Of a DNA stretch of 64,000 nt, positions 28,081 to 58,405 are shown one piece after another. This stretch comes from Haliclystus octoradiatus (Eukaryota > Cnidaria > Staurozoa > Stauromedusae > Haliclystidae). The position numbers were made by a program, and so were the translations under genes. Position 1 is the first letter of the stretch, and the number at the start of each line of letters is the position of its first letter. The stretch lies in NCBI GenBank assembly GCA_916610825.1, contig OU744446.1, forward strand, positions 30,456,445-30,520,444, written 5' to 3'. The notes beneath the pieces were generated by a model. The model was not told the DNA's origin, did no database searches, and saw only the letters and a program-made list of their open reading frames with translations.

Positions 28081-28124
28081 TTTGCTGCTCAAAGTTTCAC
28101 GCCTACAATCAATCACCAGACAAT
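28081..28124 (-). ncRNA. Decayed hammerhead ribozyme copy
   Basis: The minus strand reads TTGT, then CTGGTGA (expected CTGANGA), a degenerate stem II, GAAAC, then TTTGAGC where the intact copies have AGTA. The core A6 is changed to G and the stem III U next to the cleavage site to C, so it should not cleave. Position and flanks match the other copies. Confidence 0.5.
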
Positions 28125-28290
28125 GTGTTGAAATGATTTATTGTGAAGACCAAATTACTAGATTGCATGATGACCACTTACATTTTTTATATATTTTATT
28201 CATTATATCTTATCTTATATCATTGTCTCGTGAAAACTAATTGGCAATTTTTTGTTTAAAACAGAAGCGTAAATAACAAACTAATTATTT

Positions 28291-28499
28291 ATTAAAGGGG
28301 CAAGATTGACCGGCGACCGCTGCGAGCACAAGTTGAATTTATGCTTAGCGTAATTCAACCGTCTCGCTTTGAAACTATTGTTCTACGCAGGCCTAATCTG
28401 TTATAAATTCATGTCAACAATGTACATTGTGTTATGAACAATAAACATGCACGTGATCCGAAGTGCGTAGCGCCTGCCGGTCATTTTTGCTCCTTTAAT
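28291..28499. repeat. MITE-like element, copy 2, with terminal inverted repeats
   Basis: A 209-bp element. Its left end, ATTAAAGGGGCAAGATTGAC followed by CGGC, is the inverse of its right end, GCCGGTCATTTTTGCTCCTT then TAAT. The internal stretch TTGAATTTATGCTTAGCG then TAATTCAA is self-complementary. It is homologous to 22087-22283. No transposase is present. Confidence 0.7.
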
Positions 28500-29095
28500 T
28501 AAAACTTTGTCTTATTAGATAGGATCGAATGCCAACATTTTAGAACCTTTGACGTAGTATTGAACATAATAATATACACTACATTATCAAGATACAATAA
28601 TCGCCGGTTAAACTATATTAGGCCTTACGATGTTATATTCCGACATAATTCTGACCGTTCCAACTATCGTTTTCGAATGGGCATTGTCATAAATATATTC
28701 CTATGTAACTGACTGAAATAATACAAATACTATGATGTTCATTGGTTTTTAAAATTCAAAGAATAACATCAGAATAGGCTAGATATAGGTCGATATATGC
28801 TCGAAACTCCAACAGACGCTATTTTTATGATGACAATACACGTAAAGCAAGCGTTATAAAACTTAAAATTACATAAAATATGTTTTTTGCATGTTGAAAA
28901 TGTGATAAATAGAACAGCAGAAAAACGCGGTTGCAAAATTTAACTTGGCCTATTCTATTTATAGATAGTTTAGAACAATCGTTCATCTTAGTATTTCAAT
29001 TCTCTATATACTCGTTTTTACAGGGAGCCTTTATAATAATAAATTAGAAAAATTGCTATACTGATTGTAAACTCAGATACACATATGTTCAGTGT
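28500..29095. other. Intergenic, nothing recognised
   Basis: AT-rich spacer between the MITE and the 29.1-kb ribozyme tail. No supported feature. Confidence 0.35.
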
Positions 29096-29165
29096 ATGAG
29101 AGTGCTCAATGTTGGATAAAACAGAGCATTATAGATTAAGAGACGAAGATGAGGCAAGCCTTTTT
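29096..29165 (-). repeat. Tail repeat downstream of the 29.2-kb hammerhead
   Basis: On the minus strand the hammerhead is followed by a segment containing CATCTTCGTCTC, TATAATGCTCTG and ATTGAGCACTCTC. The same order of words occurs after the 42.7-kb copy and in the palindromes at 24.4, 34.3 and 58.3 kb. Confidence 0.6.
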
Positions 29166-29209
29166 CCGTTACTCAAAGTTTCACGCGTTTAATTGCGATC
29201 TTCAGACGT
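29166..29209 (-). ncRNA. Hammerhead ribozyme (type I), core intact
   Basis: Minus strand: stem I ACGT, then CTGAAGA (fits CUGANGA), then U, stem II CGC/GCG around an 8-base loop, U, GAAAC, and stem III ACT/AGT closed by TTG. Cleavage is predicted after GUA. Stem I is completed by ACGG, giving three pairs with the outermost mismatched. All invariant core residues are present. Known members of this architecture lie in terminal repeats of Penelope-like elements. Position 10.1-11.1 is U-U, as in all copies here. Confidence 0.72.
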
Positions 29210-31109
29210 AATACTACTAATAGTAATAATAAACAGTGCGTACTAAGAAAGTAGTGCTCAACTTCCCAAATTGCTAAGAAAGTTCAATACTAGGATTTTC
29301 AAGTCTTTAAGACTTTCAAATATTTGCGTTCGCAAACTTTTTACTAGTTTTTGTTGGTTGTGTTTCTGTTTTCTTGAATCCCAAGATCATGTTTATCTCT
29401 TTATTTGATATTTCTAGAAGAGGGATAATGTTAATGTAATTCTATAGATATAGCTAGCTACTAGATGATTCAATCACGTTAAACCACTAAAAATCCGTAA
29501 AAAAATGGGGTTTCCATTGGATGTCTATTTCGGATTCGGATGAGAAAGTTTGGATACTGAAATTACGATTTTTTTACGAAAGTTTCAATAATACTGGTGA
29601 AATGTCAACTTTCGTATAGAAACAAAAATGTATTCTGACATCTTAATTACATATCAAAGTGAATGTATAATTTCGGAAACGTAAAGAATGCTCCAATGTA
29701 ATGCCAATAAGAAAACACATAAGCATATAGTAATACAGTATAAAATACCTATAATTACACATTACAAGAAAGTTGAAAAGAGCTGTATGCAAAATTACAA
29801 TGACGCTATACAATTTTTGACCGTTATAGTTGTAAACATGCAGTACAAAAAATAAGTAATATTAAATAACAAGTCAGATTGATCAAGTTTTAAGGTAGAT
29901 CTTAATATCCCTTACCTTGAATATGAATTTCGAAGTCCTATCAATTTTTTTGCTATAATTGCGTTAAATTATAATTGTTATGTTCATGAACGTACTTCAT
30001 CGACCGATAGTTCAAAGTAAATGTTTTAAAATCAATCGTCTTTGCTATTTATATACTCAGGGAAACAACTATTACAGAACAATAGATACGTTGTTAATCT
30101 GATACTGGCTCGTTGATTACTGTCGACAGATTAATTCTGTTTAATGATTTAATTAATCGCATGTATAATCACATATCTAGATTATAATTCTAAATTTCAT
30201 ATTGTAGTATTAGCAATCAAGTCTGTAATCGTCGACCACCCTTGACGCTATATCCATGAGATTTTCCAAATAAAAAATTCAATATTTTGAATGCATAAAA
30301 TTGGAACATTTTTGAATTCATTACCGGGACCACGAGGAATCATGAATTCAGACATTACGAAATAGGCATATATATTGTATCTACAGTATAATTTATATAC
30401 AGACAATATCAGGGTCATACTGTGTATAAATGAACAAAAGAAACTGCCTCGTAAACTGTCTAGAACGGCAAACGTGGCTCGTGGGTGAATCTTTACATAA
30501 ATTGAAGGTATCTGAAGTTATACATAAATTGTACATTCCTTGATATGTCTGAATTTCACGTGTTTCAAGACATTCTGCCTCGAATATTTCAAATAAAATA
30601 TCAATTATCAAATAGCTCAATTACTCATTGATCCATCTACTTTTAATCAACTTTTAAATTTACGCTATTTCCATTTTTATGTCTGTAGAATGTAAGGATT
30701 CACGATGCTGTTTTAGATGCAATATACTTGAAACACATATCGATGGTTTCGTCATTAACCAGAGGGGTACATGGCCGGCTTTATTTGGTAAATAAATACA
30801 GTACATCTAAGTTGAGAAAACCAATGAAAACTGTTTCGTTTTTCTACAACAATACTTTCTCAGACTGAAGACTTGAATGAATTTCTATTGTCTCACAAAT
30901 ACAAAATAGTACAATCCTTTGTTGTCACTTGACAGATAAGTTGTGTATTTTCATCGTAGTAATTCTCAGAATGAAATTCAAATGTAAACAAATAGAAACA
31001 TATATTTATATGAAAGTGAAAAAAACAAGATGATGTGTTATCATCTTATCTTTAGTTTGAACTTATATAATGATTGATGAAATTGAGACAAAGATGAGGC
31101 AAAGCCTTT
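29210..31109. other. Intergenic, nothing recognised
   Basis: Short open frames only, with no recognisable domain. The ribozyme tail of the 31.1-kb copy occupies about 31060-31109. Confidence 0.35.
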
Positions 31110-31154
31110 CCGTAACTCGAAGTTTCACGTGTTTATTTCACGATCATCAGACGG
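31110..31154 (-). ncRNA. Hammerhead ribozyme (type I), best-preserved copy
   Basis: Minus strand: stem I CCGT, then CTGATGA, U, stem II CGTG/CACG closed by AAATAAA, U, GAAAC, and stem III ACT/AGT with loop TCG. Cleavage is predicted after GUU, followed by ACGG, which pairs perfectly with CCGT. Every invariant core base (CUGANGA, GAAA, the A15.1-U16.1 pair and H17) is present in the required order. Against the 58-kb copy, stems I and II differ in sequence but keep pairing, which is good evidence for an RNA fold. The one deviation from the usual consensus is a U-U at the base of stem II. Confidence 0.8.
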
Positions 31155-34123
31155 TATCTTTCACATATATGAGTTTACCTCATATTACATTATTATAATG
31201 ATTGATGAAGAATTATTATTGGAAAATGATATGGAATAGAAGGTTATGAAATTTGTAAACAAACCCGCGTTATGGAAATTAAATTACGAAGATATAAAAC
31301 AAAATATTTCCTGATAATTAGCCAGTGTTAAATTGTACAGTACTGCAAAGAACTTGAATTAAAATATAGAAACAATTGCAATACCAACTTCCACTTCATC
31401 AGTGACAACAAATAAATTAAAATATATAAGTAAGTACATGACTGTAATTAATGAAGTATAGATGTAAAGAAATGATAAATAGTTTCCCATTTTATACTTT
31501 TTCAGAAGTCACTCATTAATGAATTTTATTCGGGATGTGCCAGTGTTGTTAGGTGAAACAGAATTTGATTTAGACAAACCCCCAAAAAGTGTTACCTTGC
31601 AGCTTTAAGACACTCAGGTTGGTGTAATGTGTCTTTAATTTTGTCGGGGATATGGCTACTTATAACTTCCACGTCCTATAGGATAAACTAAAATAGTACC
31701 TAATTTTTTAAACCAAATCCTGTGCGTTCCACTTTTCCCTTCTAAATTTTCTGCTTCTTTGAACAGCAAAAAATAACACAGGAATATCTTCTCAATTAAA
31801 TTTCGGCTTCGATCGGATTTTCTACATAGATTTCTTCATGCATTTCACCAGCTAAGCCAGATGATTCACAACTCAATATAAGGATGCATTTGCATGCAAC
31901 TCGAAATCTAGTACTTTCAAAAATTCTTAGTTCGTAAGTCCAACCAAATTTGCCTTTATTCGGTGAAAACCAGCGCGATAGCTAGTCTGCGAGTGTGCTA
32001 TGCACGATGCAAGGACCGACATGACCAGCCCGCATCTGCTTGAAAAGGGAGGCAAAATTTGTAGTGTGAAATCATCATACAGTTTCGTTTCATCATGGTT
32101 TCATTACAAAGCCAATTAAGCCCTCGCCTGCACATCTGTATTCTGTACGATGGTAGAAATTTGAATATTTCGTGTCTTCGTTATATATAAGTACATTATA
32201 ATCATTAATCCTTATACTGCTTTCGAAATGGCCATTACTTGTTTTGAAAGTTTACAGAGTTTGAGCTTTTCCATCATGCTGCAAAGTTTTTTGTTAAAAA
32301 AGGAAAATTTACCTTCTTTTCCTGGCCTTCTCATAACACACTGTCCCCCTCCCGATTCCATCGTCTATCAACCCAAAGAATCAACAGGTTATTTTGACTT
32401 GAGTCACATACACGATGCGGTCAATCACAATTACAAAAAATTGATAGCATAGCTCAGATATTTTTACTACAATTTTGTTTCAATTAATTGAAATTCTTTT
32501 TAAATTATGAGTAATCGACACAATTATTAACAATGGGCTTAATTATTACGGTACTACAGTATAACGCATCAACGGCCGAAACTATATCAAACGATAAGTC
32601 ATAGAGCAGTGACACATTTTATTACTACCTAGAAGAATATTAACGAAGGATCCCAAAAGAATAGCTATGTTATGACCAAGGTCAAATGTCAGAGTTCAAA
32701 GTACTTATAATATTCAATACAAATTTTAACAAATTGATTATTACACATTTGAGGTCTATTCACAGAAGAATCTAGCTGCTGTAGACGTTTAAAGTCCGAA
32801 AATGCTTCGTATAATCATCAATATATTTAAAATAAAATTAGTCGCTTAATAATTACATTCAACATTTGGAAACAAATTTAAAAATGGTTTGATTTCGGGT
32901 TAAATTTGCTCGATTTTCGTTTTGTTACTTGCTTCTTGCATTACAATAATATCGAACGATCTGTTCTCAAAGATGATAAATTATTCGAATCTATCCTAAA
33001 ATACCCGCCGTATATATTTAAGGCATCATCATTCTATTGATATTGATCAAAAATATGTACAGATCAAACCAAGAAATGGGCGTTTCTCCTGCAATTATAG
33101 TTTGCGTACTATGCAGTTTGTGTTTGTTAAATGATCAATGTAATATACGTCACTATATATGTTAGTCTTGTTAAGTAATTTCATAAGGGATACTCCATGC
33201 TTACCGTATTTCACTGCTCCACTCTGGCAACCGTCTTATCTACAAAATGTCCCTTCACTGAATACTTGCCGATCAAATATTTCTTGTAGTACATCTATGT
33301 ACGAATAATAGATTTTATTGACTATAATCAATCCGAAAATATGCCAGTAATGTTGACTTGATGGCGGACTCAAAAGAAACTAACCGTAAAACAATAAATT
33401 TCCGCACCTTAAAAGGGAATAATTCTTCGTTTGGAATTCTTAGTCAGAATATTATGTCTTTTGATGCAAACAATATTTTTATACATTAATTCTATCGCTA
33501 GGACAATCATTATTTTACAGAATACTACAGAGAAAAAAACCGGGGGAAAAAAGCGAATCTCAGAAATCGGAATGAAGTTTTAGAATCTAAATGGTAAACC
33601 AAATACCGATCTCCAAACATCACTTTTAAAGTCCATTTCAGCAGTGCAGTCTTCAGTTCTCACAGTGTCCCAATAAGGTTCATGAATCTATACTATCACA
33701 GGAAAATTTGTTAAATTTTTTATGGATAAATTTCTGATGGACTCAGTATTCAATAAAATCCGTTTCAAGATAGATCGATTGATCATGCCTACCCATAACT
33801 ATAGCATAGCAATGAAAAACTGTATTTCTGAAAAACTAGTTATACCTGTTTACGTACATATTAACGAGTTTGGTCAATATAACGTTATTTTTAGAACCTG
33901 AATGACACGGCTAACCATACTAGGTAGACTTGACTGCAAAAAGAAAGTGAATTCAACAGTACAAGTACGCTGGACACGCCCTTCAATAAACGGGGCATAA
34001 AATTACATTGAATAGAAAATTTAGATTTCTAAATCTGTTTTTCTTTCTTAATATGATAAATAAGCAAAACAATCTACATATATAGTATCTAAAAACCTTT
34101 TCATCAAAGCACCATGTACTGTC

Positions 34124-34125
<2 letters not shown>
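31155..34125. other. Intergenic, nothing recognised
   Basis: Nearly 3 kb with only short, domain-free open frames and no clear repeat structure. Confidence 0.35.
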
Positions 34126-34185
<60 letters not shown>

Positions 34186-34220
34186 TAATAATAATAATAA
34201 TAATAATAATATAATAATAA
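34126..34220. repeat. TAA microsatellite, left of a palindrome
   Basis: About 30 TAA triplets with one AAC interruption and one slipped unit. Confidence 0.95.
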
Positions 34221-34239
34221 AGATAGATTTATCTATCGT

Positions 34240-34500
<261 letters not shown>

Positions 34501-35364
34501 ATAATAAACAGAATAAATTGGAGTGATTAGAATGTGTCTGTGACATAGAACATAGACTGAGATTCAATTTCAATGCAGCTGGATGTAAGTTACATGTCAA
34601 CTTTGTGGTGTAGATTATATAGAAATTTGAGAAGTAAATAAATGAATATTTGAGTATTGTCATTATTCTACTTAATATAGTGTACTTACCTTTTGGGTGC
34701 AGTCTATGACAGATTGGATTAAATTTATTTTTGAAATGAATCTGGAAAATACAGTTGAAGGTTTTAGTCATATCAAAGACTTGATTCATTTACTGTCAAT
34801 TTATATATTAAAGTTAACTACGTGCTTTTCATTGTATTAATTTAGTACCCCGCACTATTGATACTCTATGGTGATAATAATTGCATTGTATATTCAGTGT
34901 ATTGACGCTTGATGATACGAGATCGCAGAGTGGGATGTTTCTACTGTTTCCTATTTTAAGACCAGCTCTCTGCTGTCTGATTTACCTAAACGTAGGCGGT
35001 AACTTACTATACTGTAATCACTTATTCGTGACACATGAGGAATGCCGCTTGTGTTGAAAATGCATGCTATACAGAGGCGTTGATTGTGTCTATAACTTTA
35101 TAAAGTACTACAAACAAATACGAATACAAGTTCACAATGCTTAGATGAGGTACAGGTGCATGGTAATGAGATGAGATGATGATAATGATACTAATAAAAG
35201 GCACCGTATTCAGGCCTCAGGCATAGATTCACTTGCTAGTATAATTTGCAATACAATGGCATTGAATCGAAACTTTAACATTGAATCCAACCTTTTGACG
35301 GGCATCCTGATTTGATTGGCTTCAGATTTTTGAAAATATGCTTAGTATTTTTATTACTGCTTTT
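34501..35364. other. Intergenic, nothing recognised
   Basis: No supported feature. Confidence 0.35.
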
Positions 35365-35630
35365 ATATGTATTAAATTCTGTTTTCAACCTATTTTCAAC
35401 ACTTTTTGCATCTGTACCTTTGTACATTTACTACTATATACATAGAATGAAAAATAAACAAGTTATTCAACTTTTAAACTGAACTTGGTGGTAAACGTTT
35501 TTGTCTGACTAACATTTGTTGCAAGTACTTTTTCATTTTATACATGCTAGATTTGTAATAAATATACAAAGGTACCAGATGCAAAAAGAATTTTGAAAAT
35601 CGGTTGAAAACAAATTTTAATACAAAATAA
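35365..35630. repeat. Foldback element with ~95-bp inverted arms
   Basis: The left arm (about 35368-35460) and right arm (about 35530-35626) are imperfect inverse copies. They share GTTTTCAACC, CTTTTTGCATCTG, TACCTTTGTA and a terminal TGTATTAAA. The loop is about 70 bases. No ORF is present; it is probably a non-autonomous DNA element. Confidence 0.7.
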
Positions 35631-38600
35631 GCGATAAAAAGTTGTGAAATGTCCTTGAGTTACCCCTGATCTAGGCACGACCTTATCACTTGTGCCCAAC
35701 CTCAGTAATGGCTCAATGGAATTCATACAAAATTCCTTTGTTTGACTTTGCAGTTAAATTTCCATTGATTTCTTCCCTTTCTGCGTCATAATCGAAATGT
35801 TCACGCCCCGACTGGTATATATATCGTTGAAGCTATAAGGCCCTGAGGTACCGACAACTGTACTCCGCCGCTCCAGTCATAATACTGATCATTATGTGAA
35901 CATATATCCCTCTTGTTCATGGTAAGAGAAACGAGCAAATGGCTCATGGCTGAGTACGTACTCCTGTGCCTTAAATCTTGATCATTAAGATTTTTCAGAC
36001 AACATACCAAAACCCTCAGCAAACTAATAATTCTACACCCTGAACAACAACGCCGGCATAATTCAACTTTCAGATCATTCATTACCTTCGGGAAAAAAGC
36101 TGTTTTAATGCAATTAATTACATTGTCGGCAAATATGATAATTAAACAAATTCTATAAACTATAAATGTTTTTTGCTGTTACGTAGAAAATTGTTCTCTC
36201 TATGCTGCAATTTTGATTGACAGCATGAGTCTTGAAATGTACAAAATGTACAACTCGATTGTCGCATTTTCGCATTGGCATGTCAAAATGTACAAATGTA
36301 CTAAATGTAACGTGATTGCGGCGTGTAATTTTACAAGTTTCTTTACAAGATGCTAAATATCTACTGCGATTTGAAGAGCAAAAGTTTATTTCAGTGGCTC
36401 TAAAAGTCGCTTTTTATTGACATTAAAATTGCAACATAAATATGAACAAGATCTAAAAATTAAGCAATACACGTTTTAATGATTGGAACCGTTGAAGATA
36501 TTTTTAAACTTGGAATGAAAATTTGGTTGTTATATGATGCAATATGAAAACAAAAATAGCTAAACAAGATCTAATTTTGGTACTGTAGTACTTCTTTTCC
36601 AATTTTAGGTAATTAAAATATATTTGCGTAGCCGTAGCATGTAGGCATCATATAATCCGTAGGCAGCATCTAGACTATTAAGAAGGATCATACTGTAAGG
36701 TATTTGACAATGTGTGACCATTGAAGTCGTTGCAAAAGTGAGTGTCAAAATCTTGGGTTGGCAGGGTTCAAACTTGTATACAAATTAAAACAACATAAAA
36801 AATGCTGATTACAGGTTATTAGATAATTGTCATCATTAGAAACACCATGTCAAATTCCTACACCGTTGATATTGAAATGTGTTTAGTATTACAACTGAAT
36901 ATAATACCACTACTCACAAATATATCATTCTAGGGGAATTCTAAATGAATAGCTTGCAATAAGTTATTTAAAAATCTTTTAACATTTTTTTGAAATCATA
37001 ATTGTTCAAATCATTCAAATCTATTAAAACTTGATGTCAAAAATGTTTACGCTGTAAATGTAAGTACAAAGATAACGTCGGGCTTTACCTAAGATTCAAT
37101 AGTTTTTATTTATTTTTATCCGTAGCCGTGACACTCAAATAAAGTGCTATCGTTACCTGTAGAAAAAGATACAATACACCCTAGCTATGTATAAACAATA
37201 CACTCTACACAAAATTAGAAAGGAATAAATATCTTGACTTTGACTCATTGAGGTAAACGTTTCCTCTTTTTACATATATAAATAGATTGCAATTTGTAGC
37301 AGTTTTGAAGTTATCAGCGCAGATTTATACTGACATGGCTATATACCCTAATTGAAACATAACAGTCAATGTGACCGGTTTTATTCTATTATCAAGTAAA
37401 ACATTGATTTTCCATTTGTTATCAACTTGTACACTTTAACTTTATACTCTATAACCGAATAGCAACACCAACAACCATACATAGCGAACTCAACCTTTAA
37501 AGTGCATAATTGACCGCCAAATTACAATTTTGCCAAAAAGTGTTTGCCATGCGGATTTATTGTCGACATTTCCGTTAATGTTTATATAGGTTAAATAGCT
37601 GTTTGAGCTTAAATCATTATCAGTGTATATGTAACAGCAAATAGTCAGCAAGTTAGAAAATATCATAGCTAAATAAATCAAAATTATAATTATCTAGGTC
37701 AACAAAATTATACAAAGGTATCTTCAACATACAGGTTTAAAACCTAACGCTAAAGGTCAAAGTTCTTGAAAATTAGCTACACCCAAACTTACCTCGCAAT
37801 TTAACAATTTTGGCTTCTAAGTTTCTTTCCAACCAATCGATTTGAGCTGTAATACAGTGAATTATAAATCAGTTATAGCCCCCTCCAAATTGATCAGAAT
37901 TATCAATACTGAATTAAATTTAGATGTATAATGTATTACTAACTTTGAGAGCTGTAGCTTATGACCTTTGGAGCGATAGCTCCTTCTGCTTGTATTTTAC
38001 AAAAGACAATTTTCAGCGATTTTTACCATCTCACGTGATCGATGACTGCAGCCCTCCTTAATCCTAATACTACCGCTGATATGAGTGCCTGATTTTGACA
38101 TATAGGATTCTGTTGTCATGGCTACTATCATACTTTTTGTAATGTCTTGTCTGCAACCTCCGAATATACGATAAATATGTCTCACATAAGCTATTTATGC
38201 ACCTGTTAGATGCAGTTTCCAGATAAATGGCGAATTTTGAGTCTCTCTGTATGCTTAAAAACAGTTTCTTACTTTGCAGGACTTTGGATCTAAACATATC
38301 AGTGATTACGTAAAAGAGGATTATTGAAAAGGTTAGATAATTCTCAAGAAAATGATAGAAAACGCCCTGGCATTGTGAATCATAAGCCTTTATGTATGCC
38401 GTGTATACATAATAATAATAATAATAATAATAATTAATGGATGATAATTGATGACACTTGAGACCGTTATTTTATGCAGAAAGCTATTCTTGTTCATCCT
38501 GCTTATTTTGCTTACAGCTACAAATTTCAACCGAGGGTCCGTCTCATGACAAAATTTTTGGTTTGGTGTGAAAAATTGCAATCCAAAGCTGAAAAAACAG

Positions 38601-40700: not shown

Positions 40701-40706
40701 CAGTAA

Positions 40707-40803
40707 TTCAATTTCAGGAATTTTCAAGAGAAAATCAGAAATTTCAAAATAAATTTCAGAAATTTCAAATTCAATTTCAGACATTCCAATTCAATTTCAG
40801 ACA
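40707..40803. repeat. Short degenerate tandem repeat (TTTCAGAAATTTCAAA type)
   Basis: Several copies of AATTTCAGA/ATTTCAAAT follow each other and make the local open frame rich in QF, so that frame is unlikely to be a gene. Confidence 0.6.
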
Positions 40804-41265: not shown

Positions 41266-41269
41266 AGAC

Positions 41270-42675
41270 GGGAATATAGTTCCCGTCCGTTTTTTGTCAT
41301 ATTATCGATTCAGCCAATCAGTGTCTGTATATCATTTTCCTCGCACGTGAATAAACGATGTAACCAATCAGAATGCATTTCCTGTATCGCAAGAAAAGAA
41401 AGAGCCCGGGAAAACCGAACCTATGGTATTTTTCTTGTATTCCTTATGTATAAGACGGTTATTTGAATAGTTTAAGCAAATAATTAACAAAACCAATGAA
41501 TCGCTTTAGCCCTTGAAAACTGTTGCAAATATTGTATTGTCAAATTAGAGTATAGAACCACAAAGGCCAAACAAGTATTAGTGTAAATTTGTTACAAATT
41601 GTTGCGACATTAATAAATAGTTACTAAAAATAAGAATTTCAAAAAATAAAAATAATAGTTTCAACCAAGAAGTTCATCAAATGTGAAGTCAGTAATGTCA
41701 TGTACAATTTTATAATTCAATTATATATAAAAGCCATAGAGAACGGATTTTAAGCGTGTGACTGTATATTTAGTATTTAATAACTTTTAAGCGATCAGCA
41801 TAGTCAAGATATATAGGTTAGTCTACATTTGGCAAAATAGTAAATGTTTGGGGGACGTTCCAATCTAATGTTGCCATTTATAGGCATAAAGTATAAAGCA
41901 AAATTTTAACGTCGATAATTAGCATTGATAGTGGTAGACACAGAAGTTTTTATTTATCAAACTGATAAATTATTAATTGTATCACCATATGTTTCAGCTT
42001 TGTTGTCTTGATCTATATATGATGTCATTGCGTATAGCTGTTACATCATTTTATCCAGAGCCATCTATTTACAAATATTTACAAATTTGTAAATATTTTA
42101 TTTGTAAATAGATGGGGCTCTGCTTTTATCTTATCAGTTGTAAATGACCAGAAATAACAGCACGTGCATGCTGTGTTTCGTACGTCATAATCCGTAATTA
42201 GAAGGTTATTGTTTAGCTAATTAAGTTTCATTTTTAAGACGCATCATATAAAGTTTAACGCATGCGCACAATCCTTTGTAAATATTTCAGTATAAAAACT
42301 ATGTACATCAATATATTTTCTTTGTCAGATGTAAGTTGCGAGAGACAGACTGTTTTAGATAACGTTAAAATAAATATTCATTTACACAATTAAAAGTTAG
42401 TGTTTAGTATAGTCTTGAAAGAAATCAAGTATTATATGTTGTTTATTGTTATGCTGAACTGATATTCTCTTTGCGTCAAATACTCTGTCCGAAAGATTAA
42501 TTGAACTAAATCGGAGAGTCCGATACATGCTGCCTTGTACTTCATATACAGTAAAACCTCTATAGCATTGTATGTGTTGTAAGTTGTCTTGCTGATTGAA
42601 CATGAGGGCTCAATGCTTTACAGCAGAGCTTTCAATAATATATAAAATGTGAAGTCAAAAATCAGACAATCATGT
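41270..42675. other. Intergenic, with a 67-bp hairpin at 42056-42122
   Basis: CAGAGCCATCTATTTACAAA at 42056 is the inverse of the segment ending AAATAGATGGGGCTCTG at 42122, with TTACAAATTTGTAA between. The rest shows nothing recognisable. Confidence 0.5.
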
Positions 42676-42715
42676 TTGTTACTCAAAGTTTTACGCCAAG
42701 GCGATCATCAGGCAA
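42676..42715 (-). ncRNA. Hammerhead ribozyme copy, core mutated
   Basis: Minus strand: TTGC, CTGATGA, U, stem II CGCC/GGCG, U, then AAAAC in place of GAAAC, stem III ACT/AGT, GUA, and ACAA. G12 is changed to A, so it should be inactive, although stem II is perfect. The usual tail follows on the minus strand down to about 42610. It lies about 260 bases upstream of the Penelope-like remnant, in the opposite orientation. Confidence 0.65.
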
Positions 42716-42972: not shown

Positions 42973-43698
42973 AGTGGACTGTCAGACCTCTCAAATAATG
43001 CAGTAATATTCAGTAAATCAAAGGATCAATACGAGACAGCCTTAAAGTCAAGCGGACACAAAAGTAACCTTACTTACGCACGCACCACGAACACCTAACA
43101 GGGGTAAAAAGAACAGAAGAAGGCAAGGTAATATGGTTCAACCCACCCTATACAGTAACAAAAGTGTAAAGACTAAGATCGGAAAAATACTTTTAAAACT
43201 AATCAAGAAACACTTTCCAAAAATGCATTCCTTCCGCAAAATATTCAACCTCAACACACTAAAAATCAGCTACAGCTGTACAAAAAACATGAAGACGATA
43301 ATAAAAAGCCACAACAACAAATAATTAATAACCAACAGCAAGAAAACACCCAACGCGACCAACTATGCAACTGCCGAAAAAAGGAATTATGCCCAATGAA
43401 TAATAACTGCCTCAAGAAGAGAATTGTGTATAATGCCACAGTTACAAAGAATGAAGACCAAGAGGGGCAAAACTACATCGGCCTAACTGAAAACACGTTC
43501 AAGACATGCTATAATCAAAACGTGCACTCATTCAGAAATACAAAAGGCATCAACTCTACAGAACTCTCGAAGTATATATGGCACTTAGCAAACAAAGAAG
43601 AATACAACATCAAATGGTCAATACTCTCAACTGCCAAGACATACAGCAACAAAACAATAGCATTGTATTTATCAATTTCTCACCCATTCTCCAAATAA
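42973..43698 (+). mobile_element. Penelope-like retroelement remnant (RT C-terminus and GIY-YIG endonuclease)
   Basis: Pieces in different frames match the C-terminal part of a Penelope-like element. SGLSDLSNNAVIFSKSK and [17 protein letters not shown] come first (42973-43095, ended by TAA). Then comes the IWFNPPY region, [18 protein letters not shown], and [12 protein letters not shown] with MKTIIKSHN (to 43324). Finally come CNCRKKELCPMNNNCL and the GIY-YIG-like NYIGLTENTFKTCY ... TELSKYIWHLANK (to 43698). At least two frameshifts or stops are seen, the endonuclease Arg expected in KT(R)Y is Cys, and the usual C-terminal Cys motif is lost. The upstream reverse transcriptase core is missing. 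This is a dead fragment; its presence supports a Penelope-like origin for the nearby hammerhead repeats. Confidence 0.8.
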
Positions 43699-48835: not shown

Positions 48836-49090
48836 GACACTTTGACCATCAGATATTTATTGGAAATAGTCTGTAATTATTCAACATGATATACAAATAT
48901 TTTAAAATGTGCAGGGAACTAGTTCCAGGCTTATTGTTAGAACTGTGATACAAATAAAAATAGCCTGGAGCTAGTTCCGTCTGTTCCGTTATACATTTTG
49001 AAATGATTTGTTGACTCTAATTTGTTAAAAGAATATCATGTTGAATAATTACAGGCTATTTCCAATAACTATCTGATTGTCAAAGTGTTC
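48836..49090. repeat. Foldback/MITE element with ~60-bp terminal inverted repeats
   Basis: The left arm from 48836 (GACACTTTGACCATCAGATA ...) and right arm ending 49090 are inverse copies over about 58 bases, including TATTCAACATGATAT. An inner pair, GGGAACTAGTTCCAGGC and GCCTGGAGCTAGTTCC, continues the fold toward a short loop. It is about 255 bp and non-coding. Confidence 0.78.
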
Positions 49091-50121
49091 AGGTTATTGT
49101 TGATGTTTTCTAGGGGATTATTAAATTGTAGATTTGTGGCTACATGTTACGTTAACGTAAAACTAATTGAGCATCGCCCGATGCCTCTCTTTCGAATAAT
49201 TAAAACTCCGTCTGAAGCTGCTTGCTATTATTTACAGGAGGTACCTCTGATAACAGCATTAGCATCATATACATATCATATACATACAGTTACACTGTAT
49301 CCATGGTTTCAACTACAAAATCTTTCGTATTTCAAAAGACCTAACTTAAGCCACATACCCCTATACTCCACTTTACCAACGGCCGTTTGGTATAACAGCT
49401 GAATAGATGTAGAGTAGTGGAATAGTGGGCCTTGTGGAGCTATTCTAACGCCATGCATTTTGACTGTCTCTATGGCACTTTTTGACAGATTGTAATGATA
49501 TTAACTATCAGTTTGTTGCCATGATTAAAACGATTGTTATTACAGAAAAGCTAAACTATAAATTTATTATTAGCCGAGAAAAGGTACGGCGTTTTCCCCA
49601 GTCGGGTTATATAACAACATGCATGCAAACATTTTATACATTTAATCATTATTTCATTCCGCATTCACAATAACCCTTTCTTCTTAATCACTATATTCCC
49701 GTAATTGTTTATCATGATAATTATTTATTCAGCCAACCTGATCCCAGCTGTCTCTTATGCATACATGATATAGGGTTTATGGATGTTATAAAAAACGGTA
49801 TGGAGGAATATAATAATTTATTTACAAACGTCACCCCAAAAAAGTCTTTTCAACGCGTCAAAACATTTAGTATGATTTTTAGGTAGGAAAAGCCTGGAAA
49901 ATGCCATATTATCTCGCCTTGTACCGTACTCACTCATAAACTTCACATTGGAAGAGGTCGATATACTTAATTATCACCCTCATTCCAAAAAGTTACAATA
50001 AGGATGAATTATTGAGGCTTGAATTTAACCTGCATCTATACACATCCTTTCAACACGAAACGAACGACAGCTATAGGGTGTACGGAGCGAATTTCAGAAG
50101 TAAAAGGTAAAGGGATTAAAT
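49091..50121. other. Intergenic, nothing recognised
   Basis: Short open frames only; none shows a domain. Confidence 0.35.
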
Positions 50122-50190
50122 GGATTGGTAGCGGAGAGGGAGCCCACTGCCCCACTCAGTCTCATTGGTTCAAATTCCACAGCTGGGATG
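50122..50190 (+). repeat. Possible tRNA-derived SINE head
   Basis: There is an A-box-like TAGCGGAGAGG (50129-50139) and a B-box-like GGTTCAAATTCC (50167-50178, one base longer than the consensus). The spacing suits a tRNA, but the stems do not close well. A weak call. Confidence 0.35.
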
Positions 50191-52356
50191 TGCGGAGTTA
50201 AAACTTCAATAATATAAACCCGGGTCTAAACCAGTAAAAATGCTTGTTGTATGTTGAAAACCGCCATAGAAAAGCTTCTATCTTCAAAGTTGTAAAGATG
50301 CATCAACAATAGAGTAATCATTTCTTCTGTAAAATTAACTGAAATTATAACGGGAGTCAGAACCTTGAGGCTCTGCCGCTCTGCAGTCTGCAACCAAAAA
50401 AATCGTATCACGACCGTTATAGATTTGCCAGTGATTTCTTATGAAAATCAAGGCTGGTTATATCCTGGGCTTAATCCAGTCCTGGTCCTGTTGAAATAAT
50501 ATGGGTCCTCCTGCCCATGCAGCGTATATCCAGAGTTGGAATTTGATCTTGTTATAATTCAGTTGTTTGTTTTTACAGTGTTGTTAACAGGAAATATCAG
50601 CAGACACACCCATTTTAAAAAGCAGGCATTGAAAAGAGACTTATTTCTAGAGGCTATAGCCTCACTTGCTTTCAATCAATCTCGTAGTCAAAAATATCTA
50701 ATCAGAATAGTTCGTGAGTTTCCATAAATCTAAAACATCAGATGAGCCGAAAACCGGTCAGAGTTGTGAAGCGGTCTTTCAGAAGTAGGATGATGTTGTC
50801 CCGCCTTTGACGTGTGTCTATTGAATGTGATTGTACAGGATGATAGAAATCATCCGTCGGTTCGGTTTGCATCTATAAACGGGTGGGTGGAGAACGTATT
50901 GTTGAAATTAAAAACTGTTGATTCTAATCAATTGATAACGGAGTAATTTTACAACATATAGAGACAATATTTTCAGATCTCAATAGGTCGTTAATATATA
51001 CATGACTTGATATAAGCGTGCTTCCTATAAACCTTTCAGCTTAAACGAACCGCCACTTCCTAATGAATACACAGTTGCTATCAAAGTAGTCACGAAGTTA
51101 AGATAGCTCTACAATTTACAAAGTACTAAGAGATCGCTACCCACTGAGAGATCAAAAATTGAAAAAAAAACCGTCCCGTGATGTTTTTAAGCTTTTGGTA
51201 CAAGTTCTGTTTCAAGAATTAGGGCAATTAGAATGAAGATTATAATTTAGTAATTATTAATAATATTTAGCTCATTGAAAGCTACGTTTATTTTGTCTTT
51301 ATTCATCTATGACCTCACTCTATACTCTCTCTCCTCGATCCTCTCTGGATGGCCTATAATACCTTACATGTTTGAGAAAAAAGTTGTTTCACTACAAAAT
51401 GTAAATGCAGTTAGCAGATCATGTATTTCATTAGATTTTTTGCGGGAATAAGAACTGTTTCAGTCAATTTTCTACCACAGTATGTACTCTTTGATTCGTA
51501 CATGGTTTAGTATGCCAACTCCCTGGCTGTTGTCTATATTGATCATAAAAAGATGACATCATCATTTATTCACTTTGTTATTCAGGGGAGGCCATGATAA
51601 TTAAGCCTAACTCTAGAATATCAATAAATGATTTCGCTGTAACCTCCATTAGAAACGGCATTCTATAGCATCTATTGACAACTGGTAAAAACCCCCGTAA
51701 TTATGCAATTTAGCGTACCACGGGTAGCGGGTACGTAGTCAAAGATTTGTACAGTGAATATATCGGGAGTATGCCTGGTGTAGTGCTTCAGACGAACCAG
51801 AATACACAAAACACAAGACGTAAATAGGTTAATATTAAATGGGGTTACAAGGACATATAATAAAGGCATTATGTTACACGTATAAGTGATTACAATTTCG
51901 ATCGTAGATGTGTTGTACAGTTGAAGATCGACTTTTACCGCTGTATTGGTTGTACGAGAATCAAGACCCTAACATTTCATTTTACGATCAAAACAAAAGA
52001 AAAGTTCAACACTTTTGAGAATCTTCCAAATTGAAAGCGTAAAACTACACAAGAACACGTAAAAGGCACCGTTAGTGTATAACCGATTGGTGGGTTTGGG
52101 GTTATTTTCCATTATAATGACTGTATACTAGATGTATGGAGGTGCACCCCCAGGAAACTGATAAAGTAATAGGTGGTATTCTGTATACAAATCTAGGTCA
52201 TGTGGGAGTACTTACATAGATTCACACCTTGTCGGCGGTTTTGTTAATAGTTTTAAACCCTCATCAACGTATATTCACTGTTTGTATTAACATCAATTTA
52301 TGAAATACATCGCTATTATATTACATCCTTCTGAACACACAAAATAAATGCTAGCT
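50191..52356. other. Intergenic, nothing recognised
   Basis: No supported feature in about 2.2 kb. Confidence 0.35.
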
Positions 52357-52450
52357 TGCGCGCAGACCTATATCTGTTTTTTTATGATTAGTAATATTAT
52401 TAGTCGTATATGACTACTAATCATCTAAAAAAGATTTGGGTCTGCGCACA
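52357..52450. repeat. Short palindromic element
   Basis: GCGCGCAGACC ... ATGATTAGTA at the left is the inverse of TACTAATCAT ... GGGTCTGCGC at the right (arms about 36 bases, about 20-base loop). Confidence 0.65.
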
Positions 52451-53636
52451 GGCTATTCTTTTACAAAATCTTCGGTATAGAGTATTGATACTAGAGTATC
52501 AGTGGAGTATTGATAGGGGCAGTCTCCCCTACGACATACTGTATAGTGTAACAACTCAGGCAACCCATAGTCCCACACATATTCTACAGGATTTAAGGCA
52601 GAAGAATATTAATCAGATTCACGGCTACCCGCTGAATGTCCTACACGACGTTCAGCCTTATATAATTGCAACTTCGGTGTAAAATGTTCACTCTTCTTGT
52701 TTGAACCATGTTTGAACAGATGGCATAGCAGAACCTTTATACCATGTTATAAATATCTGGAAATGTTAAAATGCAAACGCTGTACATAATAAGATCGAGG
52801 CGGCCAGTTAGAGTCAATTAGTACATCCAAAAACATTTGAATTGGCTTATTACATATCGACACAATGGCCTTTTTAACATTTTACATGCACTTTTCTTAT
52901 TTTCTGAACACACAAGCTGTAAAACATTTGAATAGACGTCAATGCAACCAGGATGGGGGAAGGGGGTTGTGTGAAAGTTGACAGCCTGTATTAAATGTAC
53001 AAAGCTTCCATTAGGGGGTCGAAAATTGAATGAAAAGTGATTGAGGTCAATAAATTGTGAATGGTCCCCCCTATCAACGGCATTAATATACTGTAAAATA
53101 TATATCAATTAAACAACGCAAATGACAATATTACTTAATTACATGCACTCCTGATTTTAAAATATCGTGCATTCGTGTTGGTGTTGTATCAAAATGAAAA
53201 TAAAAACGTGTCGTTTATAGATCAGTTTATAAACTCTCACGCTACATCATAGAGCTGTGATGTCTGTGATGTTTTGTTGTTACTGGTGACGGCATAGACC
53301 AGCCTGAGTTTTCATATTATTACATATTTTATCCAATTCATGCGTTTCACACAATTCATTTAGACTCATCAAATCGCTCAATTGTATGATTGTCAGTGAG
53401 TCATTGATGATAATATACCGCTATAAATGAGCTGTTTATTACCCCCTCGTTAATTACAGTAATTTAATTGTGTTTGTATTTAGCGAGATCATGTGTTTAC
53501 ACTTTTAAAAATATTTTTTGAGTCATGCTCTTAAAGCTACACTTCATATTTCGATATACAATAGAAGTCTATATATACGCAAAACATTAATCAATGTTCC
53601 GATAAATGATATTTTTTACTTTCCGCCATGAACTGA
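52451..53636. other. Far 5' flank of the Sp5 gene, nothing recognised
   Basis: AT-rich spacer. No coding feature. Confidence 0.35.
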
Positions 53637-53644
53637 GATCAAAG
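53637..53644 (-). promoter_or_regulatory. TCF/LEF-type motif (GATCAAAG)
   Basis: A perfect CTTTGATC on the minus strand, about 1.3 kb upstream of the Sp5 start. Sp5 genes are known direct Wnt/beta-catenin targets, so it is a candidate site; one 8-mer alone is weak evidence. Confidence 0.35.
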
Positions 53645-54963
53645 ACAAAGTAATTAAAAACGTATGCCATATAAAATAGAACTCGCCTTCTTTCTGTTGT
53701 CATAACAGATCAATCAATATTACAAAAGGAACCGGCATTTTCTACAATTTTATAGAATACAACAAAAACTGTACAATTTCCCCCCGATTTAATACATACT
53801 ACGTGTGTGACATGATTGTAATAGCGATGTATTTGTTTGAATCTCGGCAAAAATAAAACACTCAGATGAAGTCATCTCCTCAGATAATGATGTTGAGCTC
53901 ATAAGATAAAGTATTGTAGCTAGGACTACGATCGAAAAGAGCCGACTCTGCGGGCCTACACTAGCGCAATGAAAGATATCTCAGTTTGAGCAAGGAGGAG
54001 CGCTGTTTGCAAAGGTGGAGAAGGCCACGGAAATAGGCGGGAACAATAGCGGCAGCCTTTGAGTTGAAGGAGCACTGTTGAAAATATACAGTGGAATTTT
54101 CATTCTGGATTTTCGTTAATCCGTATTGCTGTCTCGTTCCTTTTCACTCGCTTTATCAATGATAGAAAGGGTCAGAGAATTATTTAGATGTGGTTTTTCT
54201 GTGAAGTTTGAAAGTGCTATTACGCCGGCTTTTTGAAGGGTGTGATCAGTCTATCACTGTTCATTGTCAACTATGATGTCTGAACGTAACACACTAGACA
54301 CAGGCAGTGACGCTTGGCAGGCAACAAGGCGGTGCGCTTTGCTGTCGCAAATTTGAGAACCTGTTTACCGGACGGGTGATAAGCCCTATTGTAATGTAAA
54401 TTAGGCGGCGCACTTCACAAGTACTTTCTATCGCCATCCTCTATGCGCAAATTGATGCTGTGGGCAGTTCAGCGGATATAAACAATAGAGCGATATATTG
54501 TTTGGCTATTATCTTGTTGATGTGTCAACACACGATTCCCGTTGCACGGCAAAAGCCAATCACCGGGCACTGTTGTCGGTGAAGTTCTTTGATCAGCCGC
54601 GTTAATTTCTTTCCCTCCCATCCATTCATAGTTTACCGCCCAAATCCCACCCATTTTATCTTGGTCACAATGCGATCCTATTAACGCGCGCCAAATCACA
54701 GCGAGAGGCGGGTCAACCTCCTCACATCAAGAACGCCGCCTACATGAACGATTGGCTTTCGGCCTGTTTGATGTCTGCGCTATTTTGGCGGCGTCGTTTC
54801 ATGTGTGCTAAAGCAGAAACAGCTGACGTTTATCCGAGTGGGAGGAGGCAGACTACGTTTGGTCGTATTGCCAGTTGGCAGCTAGTCTTGGACCGGACCG
54901 AACATACGTTATACGCTGCTAGCATTCTCTACTCTGAAGAAGGTTTATTACGAAAATTATATC
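53645..54963 (+). promoter_or_regulatory. Proximal promoter and 5' UTR region of Sp5
   Basis: The base composition rises in GC toward the gene (GGCGGGAAC, GGCGGCGCAC, CCGCCTACATG), unlike the surrounding AT-rich DNA, as is common at promoters. It contains a TATA-like GATATAAAC (about 54476), CCAAT in both orientations (about 54557 and 54748) and the TCF motif at 54587. The open frame that begins at 54744 overlaps the start of Sp5 in another frame and is probably not coding. Confidence 0.45.
54587..54594 (+). promoter_or_regulatory. TCF/LEF-type motif (CTTTGATC)
   Basis: A perfect motif 370 bases before the Sp5 ATG, followed by GCCGCG four bases after its first base pair block ends (AGCCGCG), close to the GCCGCC helper element used by C-clamp TCFs of invertebrates. 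Inference only. Confidence 0.4.
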
Positions 54964-55011
54964 ATGTCTCCCCCGACTGCTCAACATTGTCAAAGCTATT
55001 TAATGGCCTGT
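54964..55011 (+). CDS. Sp5: Sp5 coding exon 1 (inferred)
   Basis: A short first exon is typical of Sp5, and the phase-0 junction joins it to the SP box exon. The donor GTAAGT is strong. The 257-base intron runs 55012-55268. Confidence 0.7.
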
Positions 55012-56366
55012 GTAAGTATTTTCGAATGTTTTTATTTGATCTTTTAACGAAAGTTGCAAGTTGAATGAATTATTGCCTGGGACCCTAATTTGGTTTACGA
55101 ACCATCCTAGTTGGTATATAGAGAAATTATTACAAATGTAAAGACTTCTATTTGAATTTAGCTACAGTTATTTTATTTTTCTTGAAATACATTCCTTCTT
55201 TCGTAATAGTTATTGTATATGTGTTTGAGGCTTTGTGAGTTGACGTTGACCGCTTCTTATTTTTGCAGGACCATACAAAGCGTTCACCTCTTGCATTACT
55301 TGCTGCAACTTGTAAAAAGATTGGCCAGCAAACACCTATGCCTGATGGTTCTCCTGGCAAAAAATTATTTCAACCGTGGCAATCGTCAATTACCAAAGTA
55401 CAACACTCATCTTCTCCACGGATCAGAGCTTGTTACGAACCAACTATGTCCCTTGCACAAACTGTAAATTTACAACGAATGAAAGCAGATTGTTCTGTAT
55501 CATCTAAAGGATATGTAACGCCTGTTACTGTCTTGACTGTTTCCCCTGATATGCTACCAAGAGGAACACAAGCTAACGTCTCTAATCGCTACCCAGGCGG
55601 TCACCCTTACACATCCATTAAGAGTCATGTATCGCCTAAGGAACTTGAACACGATAGAAATGCATTAGCATGGTGGAGTGTTGCTGGTAATCCAACACGC
55701 CATCCAATTCCTAGTCAAAGTCAGCCAAGTGCATTCAACGTTGCAATACCATCATCAGCACATGGTCACACTGGGGCAATCGCAGCAACACAATTAGCCG
55801 TGTCACATGGTAATACTGCTCATTTACTACAACAACAAGCATTTTTACCAATATCAGCTACATCTCAAAACATTTTTGCAATGCATAATGCTACAGCACC
55901 CGCAGTAACAAGACGTTGTCGTCGGTGTAAATGTCCTAATTGTCAATCAGGAAGAACATCACCAAGTAAACCAAAGCAACATATCTGTCACATGCCGGGG
56001 TGTGGCAAAGTGTATGGGAAGACGTCTCACTTGAAAGCTCATTTACGATGGCATACAGGGGAAAGACCATTTATATGTAATTGGTTATTCTGTAATAAAA
56101 GTTTTACGCGTTCAGATGAACTTCAACGTCATTTACGTACTCATACCGGTGAGAAAAGATTTGCTTGTTCAGAATGCGGTAAAAGATTCACACGCAGTGA
56201 TCATTTATCTAAGCATATGAAAACACACCAAAACCAACGAAAAACAGACATTGATGATATTACTAAATATACCAATAATAATAAAGTTACTAATGAAAGC
56301 CAAGGTGATATACTTAATGTTACTGATGAAATAGATGACAAAAATGAAGAAATTAATGTCGTGTAA
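54964..56366 (+). CDS. Sp5: Sp5-type zinc-finger transcription factor, two exons
   Basis: CDS = 54964-55011 plus 55269-56366, 381 residues. Sp5 binds GC/GT boxes in the nucleus and in other animals is a Wnt target that feeds back on Wnt genes. Exon 2 carries the SP box [14 protein letters not shown] (about residues 22-35), a Ser/Thr/Gln-rich middle, the buttonhead box [11 protein letters not shown] (about 231-242) and three C2H2 fingers (about 256-338). Finger contacts read [16 protein letters not shown] and RSDHLSKH, as in all Sp factors. CRRCKCPNC in the Btd box is Sp5-like; Sp6-9 have CDCPNC and Sp1-4 CTCPNC. Exon 1 is inferred: a 16-codon ATG exon with donor TGT|GTAAGT, in phase with the TTTTGCAG acceptor, giving [17 protein letters not shown], like other Sp5 N-termini. 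The acidic/Asn-rich tail after the fingers is longer than in vertebrates. Confidence 0.92.
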
Positions 56367-56509
56367 AAGTTTAATATAAAGTAACTATATATATTGATTA
56401 TATTTGGTTTATCAATTTTAATGAATGACGAATTTTAATGTATAAATAACCAGTTTTATCGGTTTTTTATACATTGTATAAAAATATGGAAATTTTTCGT
56501 TTTATTGTA

Positions 56510-56515
56510 AATAAA
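56510..56515 (+). promoter_or_regulatory. Polyadenylation signal of Sp5 (AATAAA)
   Basis: AATAAA 144 bases after the stop codon, followed by a T-rich stretch. Confidence 0.5.
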
Positions 56516-58240
56516 TATTGTATCATAAAATATCAATTAATTATTATGGAAGCAAGTTTTCCAATGAACAAATATCAAAGGTTATTATAATAAAGATTTT
56601 CTGAAAATAAGAAAATTGAACATTAACATGAAACAGTTTTTCTTTATTTCGAGTGACCTACATTTTCATTTAGATAACACCCAACTGAATTTTTGTACCA
56701 ATTTTCGACATTTACAGTTACCAAAGTGAGCGAAATTCAGGAAAGTTATTTTTTTATTTCAAAAAATGTTTGACATAACATGGTGTCTTCTTTATTTTAC
56801 GCTATAGCATATAGGTCATGGTATAATGAAGCAATTTCATAGTAGACTCCCTAAACGTTTGAGTTGCCGATGTTTTGCCCGTAAAAATGTCGAGGAGAAC
56901 ATTTTTCTGCTCACATTGCTTTCGCGGCATACCAACCACGAACTAAACACAGCCATTTTTGTTTTGGTATCAAAGTAATCAATATTTTTTTTACATTGAG
57001 TTTTTCCTGATATTTCAAAATGCTAAATATATCAATATGGGGGTATTCCTTGAGTCATTATTGGCTGAGTGTAAAATCAAGTGTCCACATTTTGTTCATA
57101 TGTTAAAAACTGGGCGGCGTGGACAATTCTAAAGGCGTTATTACTTTCCAAACATTTTTTAAGATGTTTGACTATGAATAACAAAGCGGCCACCTTGTAG
57201 GGTTTGCACTGTTCATCAAATTGTTGACGCCGTGGCGCCATAGTGCAAGGCCGTCCTCATGAAGAGATAACATACATATAATAAAATAGATCAAAGATAA
57301 TTCGTGGCTTTTGTATTTGAAGGCGGAGAGGTTTTTACGATGTTGACCTAATTCTTGGGCTGAACTACATCATAAGTTATCTTTGTAGACAAGAATATTA
57401 CTTTATCTCTTTTTGTTTGATATAGGATTGAGGGTAAGGAAACATGAAATACATTCAACATAATCACTACACTTTAATGTGCAAATGAGGCTGGTGATTT
57501 ATAATGATGATATGGAAACGCGGCTACAAGAAAGAGGCTGTAAATAACTATTGTCTAATAACTATCGAAATAATATTAGAAAAATATCTGAAAGAAATTT
57601 AAGTAAATATATTTTTAAAAAATGATTGTAAAATGCCCTGCTTCCCAAGTCAGTCAGTAAAGGTTGCAGGACACAAATCCCTGATAAATCCCGCATATCG
57701 ACTGACATTGTTAATCGACTACTGTTAGATGATGAGGATTGTTCTGTAACTATGTCCTGTATTAAAGACATAATTTCCACGATGGAAATTGGTAAAGTAA
57801 ATAAGTTAGTATTACCAAAATTAATGAAATATACGTTATTATATTTTAAATGATTTTGCATTTGGTGATAATTCACTCACGGATCCACTGCTACAGGAAA
57901 ATATTATTAAACTGAGGTTCTATTTATAAATGTCAACCCTTGAATTGTAATCAACATCTGGCAAAAATATGAAGAAACTCGTTTCCACGTTAAATGAAAC
58001 TCAACATTCGTTTGTGATATCTGCTTATTGAAGGATATTATCTTATCGAAATAGGTTTGATCTACGGTGATATCAGATTATCTATCTCATTCGTAGATTT
58101 AGATTCGAATCGTATGACAAGGAGTGCAAACGATATTATCGGAAATCGGCATTCAGCTCCGATAATTGAAACGAAACATACAAATAGGCCTACAGTCTCT
58201 CTCTATATATTTATATTAGATATTATCTAATAGCAAAAAA
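56516..58240. other. Sp5 3' flank, nothing coding recognised
   Basis: It contains a third GATCAAAG TCF-like word at 57289-57296. No other feature could be supported. Confidence 0.35.
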
Positions 58241-58267
58241 TAGTGCTCGATATCATTTGACAGAGCT

Positions 58268-58405
58268 AAATATAATAAAAGGAGTCAAAGACTACACATT
58301 CATAATTGTTACTATAATTTAGTTTATTTGTCTGATGATTGCGTAAGCATGAAACTATTAGTAACAATTATGAATGTGTAGTCTTTGACTCCTTTTATTA
58401 TATTT
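58268..58405. repeat. Perfect palindrome (47-bp arms) enclosing a hammerhead
   Basis: Arms 58268-58314 and 58359-58405 are exact inverse copies (47 of 47). They contain GGAGTCAAAGACTACACATT and CATAATTGTTACTA. The 44-base loop holds the hammerhead core. The left flank TAGTGCTCGATATC ... GACAGAGCTAA is the tail sequence seen after the other ribozymes, so two tail copies lie head to head. Confidence 0.85.
58328..58367 (+). ncRNA. Hammerhead ribozyme (type I), core intact
   Basis: Plus strand: stem I TTGT, CTGATGA, U, stem II TGC/GCA closed by GTAA, U, GAAAC, stem III ACT/AGT closed by ATT, predicted cleavage after GUA, then ACAA pairing perfectly with TTGT. All core bases are present. The 3' strands of stems III and I lie inside the right arm of the palindrome, so the long hairpin and the ribozyme fold compete. 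Confidence 0.78.

Follow-up and report, generated by a model that had tools for sequence, protein, structure and literature searches.

Five short motifs resembling the hammerhead ribozyme lie dispersed between 28.1 and 58.3 kb of a 64,000-nt stretch of the Haliclystus octoradiatus genome (assembly GCA_916610825.1, contig OU744446.1, positions 30,456,445 to 30,520,444 of the forward strand; this whole stretch is called the window here). They raise the questions of whether they are kept as RNA folds, what carries them and how they might act. Comparing their sequences with those of related copies elsewhere in the genome points to several lineages of Penelope-like retroelements (PLEs) that have minimal type I hammerheads at their 3′ end (pseudo-long terminal repeat, or pLTR, and tail), with dimeric cleavage most likely. 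We give this reading a probability of about 0.72.

The original prediction, made from the letters of the window, had named five dispersed copies. We built a covariance model, R1, from 43 distinct hammerheads, all from loci of the same genome outside the window, and ran it over the whole window with filters off. At E values up to 1 it returned five matches, and these are exactly the five named sites. Three have an unbroken core (CUGANGA ... GAAA ... UH), as had been claimed: the 58.3-kb copy (58328..58367, plus strand; E 2.1e-13), the 29.2-kb copy (29166..29209, minus strand; E 2.2e-13) and the 31.1-kb copy (31110..31154, minus strand; E 4.2e-13). The two that had been called dead are indeed damaged. 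The 42.7-kb copy (42676..42715, minus strand; E 5.7e-9) has a core base replaced (AAAA for GAAA), and the 28.1-kb copy (28082..28123, minus strand; E 5.6e-4) is a decayed relic with several defects in its core and stems. Cleavage is predicted at 58363/58364, 29170/29169 and 31114/31113 in the 58.3-, 29.2- and 31.1-kb copies, respectively.

All four stem II variants first read from the window are present: CGTG/CACG at 31.1 kb, CGCC/GGCG at 42.7 kb, CGC/GCG at 29.2 kb and TGC/GCA at 58.3 kb (in full TGC-GTAA-GCA, with a stem III of ACT-ATT-AGT). Both reported stem I variants were also seen, CCGT/ACGG at 31.1 kb and TTGT/ACAA at 58.3 kb, but the 29.2-kb copy departs from them with ACGT/ACGG, which forms three of four pairs. 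The 42.7-kb copy has a C.A mismatch at position 1.1, and in all five copies a T stands unpaired opposite a T at the stem II position next to the core.

A simple descriptor recovered four of the five window copies (all but the one at 28.1 kb), each with both stems paired. On random sequence (40 Markov-1 windows), the loose version of the descriptor averaged 1.65 hits per window; the strict version, which demands that both stems pair, averaged 0.025 and did not exceed 1. Rfam models found no hammerhead in the window at E values up to 5, nor in nine further loci at E values up to 10; the Rfam matches listed all fell under the curated family scores, and the top ones were inverted repeats. The folding energies of the window motifs had z-scores of −0.03 to 2.13 relative to shuffles, none notably better than shuffles, and folding energy therefore singles out no window motif.

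The motif is abundant outside the window. When we searched the genome (262 Mb, 33 contigs) with the strict pattern CTGANGA-N6..30-GAAACT-NNN-AGTHA, we obtained 3,789 matches, compared with 2 when the pattern was reversed as a control. With stem III left free and the length of stem II fixed, looser patterns gave 3,177 matches at 12 nt (control, 87), 1,863 at 13 nt (control, 141; an unrelated repeat is among the matches listed) and 1,525 at 14 nt (control, 140). A sample of 104 distinct cores contained 44 sequence clusters. There are thus thousands of copies and, judging from sampled loci, many of them are apparently 5′-truncated. A recurring CTGATGAAGGCTAATGGCCAGAAAC repeat (for example, at C1:2272695-2272727) imitates part of the hammerhead core without the remainder. 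We also observed arrays of hammerhead matches with regular 59-bp and 121-bp steps (C1:11374787-11375263 and C1:12348744-12349145), an arrangement that is retrozyme-like but shorter.

From pairing that is kept while sequence changes, the original prediction had argued for selection on an RNA fold, and the copies outside the window bear this out. We aligned the 43 distinct hammerheads and compared them with shuffles, which ignore the relatedness of copies; the totals take in stem III and the outer bases of its loop, N1 and N3, along with stems I and II. Overall, 88.4% of cells pair (80.1% in shuffles), 64 cells are changed on both sides (20.3 in shuffles) and the covariation score is 0.338 (0.173 in shuffles), with none of 500 shuffles as high for any of the three. 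Sliding the partners by 1-3 columns lowered pairing to 25-51%. Cruder measures came out close to shuffles, at 7 versus 6.0 for double-change pairs (153 of 500 as high) and 17 versus 17.5 for further pair types (402 of 500).

Taken pair by pair, stem I has four pairs. Among 47 distinct flanked copies, those of the window included, pairs 1.1 to 1.4 are formed in 45, 44, 40 and 41 copies, and 1.5 in 14. Pair 1.3 covaries above all 2,000 shuffles and 1.4 equals the shuffle maximum; 1.1 lies slightly below the maximum, and 1.2 is almost invariable. Stem II has 3-4 pairs and a basal U.U, and among the 104 distinct cores the covariation of pairs 10.2 and 10.4 lies above every one of 2,000 shuffles, unlike that of 10.3. 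Stem I is open at its ends and stem II is closed, and both are paired in copies of varying sequence. A tree of 52 copies requires no fewer than 7 changes for pair 1.3 and 6 for pair 1.4, with unpaired states counted. Both stems thus covary among copies of the same genome, as judged by shuffles rather than by R-scape, contrary to the outcome that would have refuted the original prediction.

The idea of a single repeat family did not hold up. The copies carry hammerheads of several lineages, each fairly uniform, and the five in the window differ chiefly by their lineage of origin. The stem changes accordingly appear mostly between lineages. Recent copying is suggested by near-identical copies, such as the perfect 47-bp arms at 58.3 kb.

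The largest number of double changes falls in the loop of stem III. The strand of this stem reads ACU-N1-x-N3-AGU, and its three pairs are nearly invariant and hence uninformative on covariation. N1 and N3, on the other hand, are paired in 41 of the 43 rows; four pair types are represented, and no other pair shows as many double changes (18). A copy from locus L021, outside the alignment on the loop limit with its 7-nt stem II loop, has N1-N3 unpaired. Among the 104 distinct cores, N1-N3 is paired in 90, whereas shuffles average 57.9 and reach at most 70. For the control pairs, the counts match the shuffle averages (N1-x, 32 versus 32.2; x-N3, 48 versus 47.0), and all four letters occur at the centre base x. 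When clusters were drawn at edit distance 2, 37 of 44 had a paired majority, and the other seven were singletons. Complementarity of N1 and N3, with U.G counted, extends to at least 3,627 of the 3,789 strict genome matches (1,907 TxR, 1,199 CxG and 521 AxT), a lower bound because GxY was left uncounted. On the same 52-copy tree, in which N1-N3 is paired in 50 copies and unpaired in 2, its type changes at least 11 times.

One-base loops do not form in RNA hairpins, and N1 and N3 cannot close in cis. Because the outer loop bases of the odd palindrome covary yet cannot pair within one molecule, a dimer is most likely, and the best reading of ACU-N1-x-N3-AGU is an odd palindrome that would pair between two ribozymes. 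In computed energies, a 3-bp stem III hairpin costs +2.1 kcal/mol, and homodimers of eight strands range from −3.6 to −7.8 kcal/mol. Over all 64 triplets, the mean homodimer energy is −5.95 kcal/mol if N1 and N3 can pair and −1.73 kcal/mol if they cannot. Ordinary monomeric hammerheads, with a 3-bp stem III capped by a triloop, would instead owe the match of N1 and N3 to shared ancestry or to a palindrome in the DNA. The copies are related, with 11 N1-N3 changes on the tree for 52 copies, and the 3-bp stem III scarcely changes, both of which suit a monomer. Against this, N1 and N3 remain matched as x varies over all four letters, distinct lineages show four types of matched pair and a 3-bp hairpin comes at a cost of about 2 kcal/mol. 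We consider monomeric action rather unlikely. At even odds, the N1-N3 covariation may record selection for ribozymes that work as dimers in vivo. With the same, evenly divided confidence, the strongest covarying pair would lie between ribozymes and not inside one, each lineage keeping its own self-complementary joint. If this is true, cleavage would occur only when two hammerheads meet, for example in tandem copies, and RNA cutting would be restricted to multi-copy transcripts.

What carries these hammerheads was addressed in sampled loci. At locus L031, a tandem pair of hammerheads 1,435 bp apart lies around PLE-like coding pieces, and we used one such piece in tblastn searches for GIY-YIG-like coding ends. 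For six of the ten ends found, the next same-strand hammerhead lies 126, 158, 172, 173, 177 or 189 bp downstream, and these six represent five different hammerhead lineages. Another has a hammerhead at 1,235 bp, and the remaining three, the relic in the window included, have no same-strand hammerhead within 3 kb or the sampled DNA. The sampled loci were chosen for hammerhead content, so that the counts give no genome-wide rate; the informative part of the result is the narrow distance of 126-189 bp. The GIY-YIG-like window relic (43342..43650, also given as 43342-43695; plus strand; NYIGLT...) is 56% identical over 104 residues to the L031 piece, and a WFNPPY piece lies upstream of it near 43.1 kb. 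A sequence search of the PDB with the reverse transcriptase (RT)-like piece gave nothing convincing (best E 0.023). At another locus, L051, an open 792-aa frame has Pfam hits to both RVT_1 and GIY-YIG. A hammerhead-like motif whose stem II begins with an ATG occurs there twice (1146-1180 and 3754-3788), at a spacing of 2,608 bp.

Short hammerhead elements could also move without a PLE open reading frame (ORF), as non-autonomous retrozymes copied through small circular RNAs. In this respect, no match to the GIY-YIG-like piece was found in 22 of the 30 loci taken first (each of roughly 3 kb, with some overlap), and the two regular arrays with 59-bp and 121-bp steps would fit such elements. However, several copies extend upstream into PLE-like coding sequence, and neighbours less than 200 bp apart are mostly head to head and not tandem: among the 299 matches listed, 34 of 48 such neighbours are −+, with 4 +−, 3 ++ and 7 −−. 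The stems are also minimal, not canonical. Whereas animal retrozymes are 150-450-bp tandem repeats with canonical type I hammerheads and loop-loop contacts, stem I here has only 4 bp and the matches listed include only two short-period arrays (59 and 121 bp). We regard retrozymes as an improbable source of these copies.

In part of the copies, a hairpin of the form GCTC-(1-5 bp, mostly 3-4)-loop-TT-GAGC lies 24-51 nt past the predicted cleavage site. This tail hairpin was found in 19 of 76 hammerhead-like places, compared with 41 of 3,000 random stretches. Covariation of its inner pairs is modest: pair 3 is formed in 12 of 14 copies (229 of 5,000 shuffles as high), pair 4 in 11 of 14 (245 of 5,000) and pair 2 in 13 of 14 (720 of 5,000), with pairs 1 and 5 uninformative. 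The window holds two on the minus strand, GCTC-TGTT..AACA-TT-GAGC (29104..29127) downstream of the 29.2-kb hammerhead and GCTC-TGCT..AGCA-TT-GAGC (42608..42629) downstream of the 42.7-kb hammerhead; the 28.1-kb relic had no tail match. Several tails continue into (TAA)n or (ATT)n.

Tails also occur in inverted pairs. An inverted tail copy (58191..58314, minus strand) lies head to head with the 58.3-kb hammerhead. Its segment 58268-58314 pairs perfectly with 58359..58405 (plus strand), which is the right arm of the 47-bp inverted repeat and holds the 3′ strand of stem I; the repeat would fold as a −74 kcal/mol hairpin. A palindrome of two tails without hammerhead cores (34284..34381, no strand assigned; 44-nt arms with 10 nt between) adjoins (TAA)n. 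We considered and rejected as unsupported the idea that copies or palindromes start exactly at the cleavage site, as RT run-off on cleaved RNA would have it. Against it, in the larger palindrome set (n = 22), for which the predicted centre is 20 (or 18) nt, 3 of 22 lie at 18-20 nt, with 2.1 expected by evenness. In its favour, four tail copies in the sampled DNA start exactly at the predicted cleavage site, two of them arms of one palindrome, with a few others within 2 nt, and one family has palindrome centres at 8, 9 and 10 nt (3 of 3), the prediction being 8.

Alternatively, the motif would be dead sequence that a DNA-level palindrome or a conserved tail carries along, its role as RNA lost. 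The 42.7- and 28.1-kb copies are decayed, and the tail may be kept for copying anyway. The compensatory changes between lineages in stems I and II nevertheless point to selection on pairing, and we hold dead sequence to be very improbable.

PLE hammerheads acting as dimers would work in the following manner. The RNA would be cut after the GUH triplet, most likely in dimer form, with two ribozymes, located in the same tandem transcript or in separate ones, sharing an 8-bp stem III with a central mismatch. Such a shared-stem dimer would cut tandem PLE RNA, and the downstream hairpin would be the likely start site of the PLE RT, as in the Anolis element PAc.

Several points weigh against this account. 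We assign the carriers to PLEs, putatively, from the GIY-YIG-like motif (NYIGLT..TFKQRY..H..SF), the RT-like piece, the tandem and inverted arrangement and the tails. Pfam gave no match for the RT-like or GIY-YIG-like pieces of these lineages, and the profile matches to L051, whose ORF is clearly that of a PLE, were weak (E 0.086 and 0.043). L051 is the sole examined ORF with both Pfam domains, yet its hammerhead-like motif is a different one. The lowest-energy fold of the three intact window copies (−4.7 to −5.3 kcal/mol) is not the hammerhead, which comes to 0.3, −0.6 and 0.9 kcal/mol in an energy model that takes no account of the hammerhead core. Position 10.1-11.1 is U.U in 70 of the 104 distinct cores and a standard pair in 29 (17 of 43 alignment rows), and it does not covary. 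The changes on the tree are few, and the copies are related. The 31.1-kb strand (UCG) forms its best homodimer in a shifted register and not the predicted one, and the 58.3-kb ribozyme could be blocked in the long hairpin if the left arm were co-transcribed. In PAc, the hammerhead is reported to be dispensable for in vitro insertion and to cleave only with added protein, with zero reads ending at its cleavage site (PMC11167929).

Taken together, the motifs are numerous and, to judge from their covariation, selected as RNA folds. They would belong to the PLE hammerheads already known, and the comparison of their sequences gives an unusually clear sign of action as dimers. Thousands of copies in one genome are a natural mutational record of which pairs selection keeps, and a base pair that is impossible within one molecule points to a dimeric active form. 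Rfam models missed all of these motifs in the window and in the nine further loci. The role of PLE hammerheads is termed a mystery in PMC7761336.

Elsewhere in the window, a 151-bp satellite array (12866-13587 and 15624-20474, about 5 and 32 copies) accounts for the many CTGATGA hits that recur at regular spacing along the minus strand. A 1,939-aa ORF (5613-11432, plus strand) matches Pao peptidase, RT and DUF5641, and is of the BEL/Pao retrotransposon type. The gene content, with a DAN domain, a rhodopsin-type receptor and a chromodomain helicase, suggests an animal genome.

Dimeric hammerheads, palindromic stem III and PLE hammerheads are each already known as such. In Adineta vaga, Penelope elements likewise have head-to-head inverted pLTRs with palindromes at the junction; unlike our case, the main text of that paper does not contain the word hammerhead (PMC3846280). 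PAc, a Poseidon PLE, has a hammerhead in its repeated pLTR region, and RT starts in a stem loop downstream; AT-rich ATT sites are preferred, and both target strands are cut and extended in vitro (PMC11167929). The stem loop and ATT sites there parallel the tail hairpin and the (TAA)n or (ATT)n tails here, whereas the hammerheads here lie 126-189 bp downstream of coding ends. Axolotl HHR_Amex2 shares the U.U at the base of stem II, showing that a standard 10.1-11.1 pair is preferred but not required, and cleaves better as a dimer; it differs in being a canonical type I hammerhead in tandem repeats of ~350 bp (PMC7229834). Palindromic stem III and dimeric conformations are described for Aedes, newt and viroid hammerheads. 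In Aedes, as here, stem III and its loop are self-complementary and two ribozymes could share one stem, but a full 10-bp stem is possible there and the palindrome here is of odd length with one central mismatch (PMC3088659).

The closest relatives appear to be the minimal type I hammerheads of PLEs and Terminons (Cervera and de la Pena 2014; Lunse et al. 2017; both via PMC7229834, PMC7761336 and PMC10085705). In Acropora millepora, type I motifs of minimal or canonical form number over 6,000 in 16 families, and dimer action has been proposed for PLE hammerheads (PMC7761336). The literature we searched, mostly as listings and without the primary PLE-hammerhead papers, held no report of the N1-N3 covariation. 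With the PLE and Terminon motifs, the Haliclystus copies share the core, a short or absent stem III, a PLE coding neighbour and dispersal in thousands of copies of several families. What appears to set them apart from those motifs is a stem III of three nearly fixed pairs and an odd palindrome whose N1 and N3 covary.

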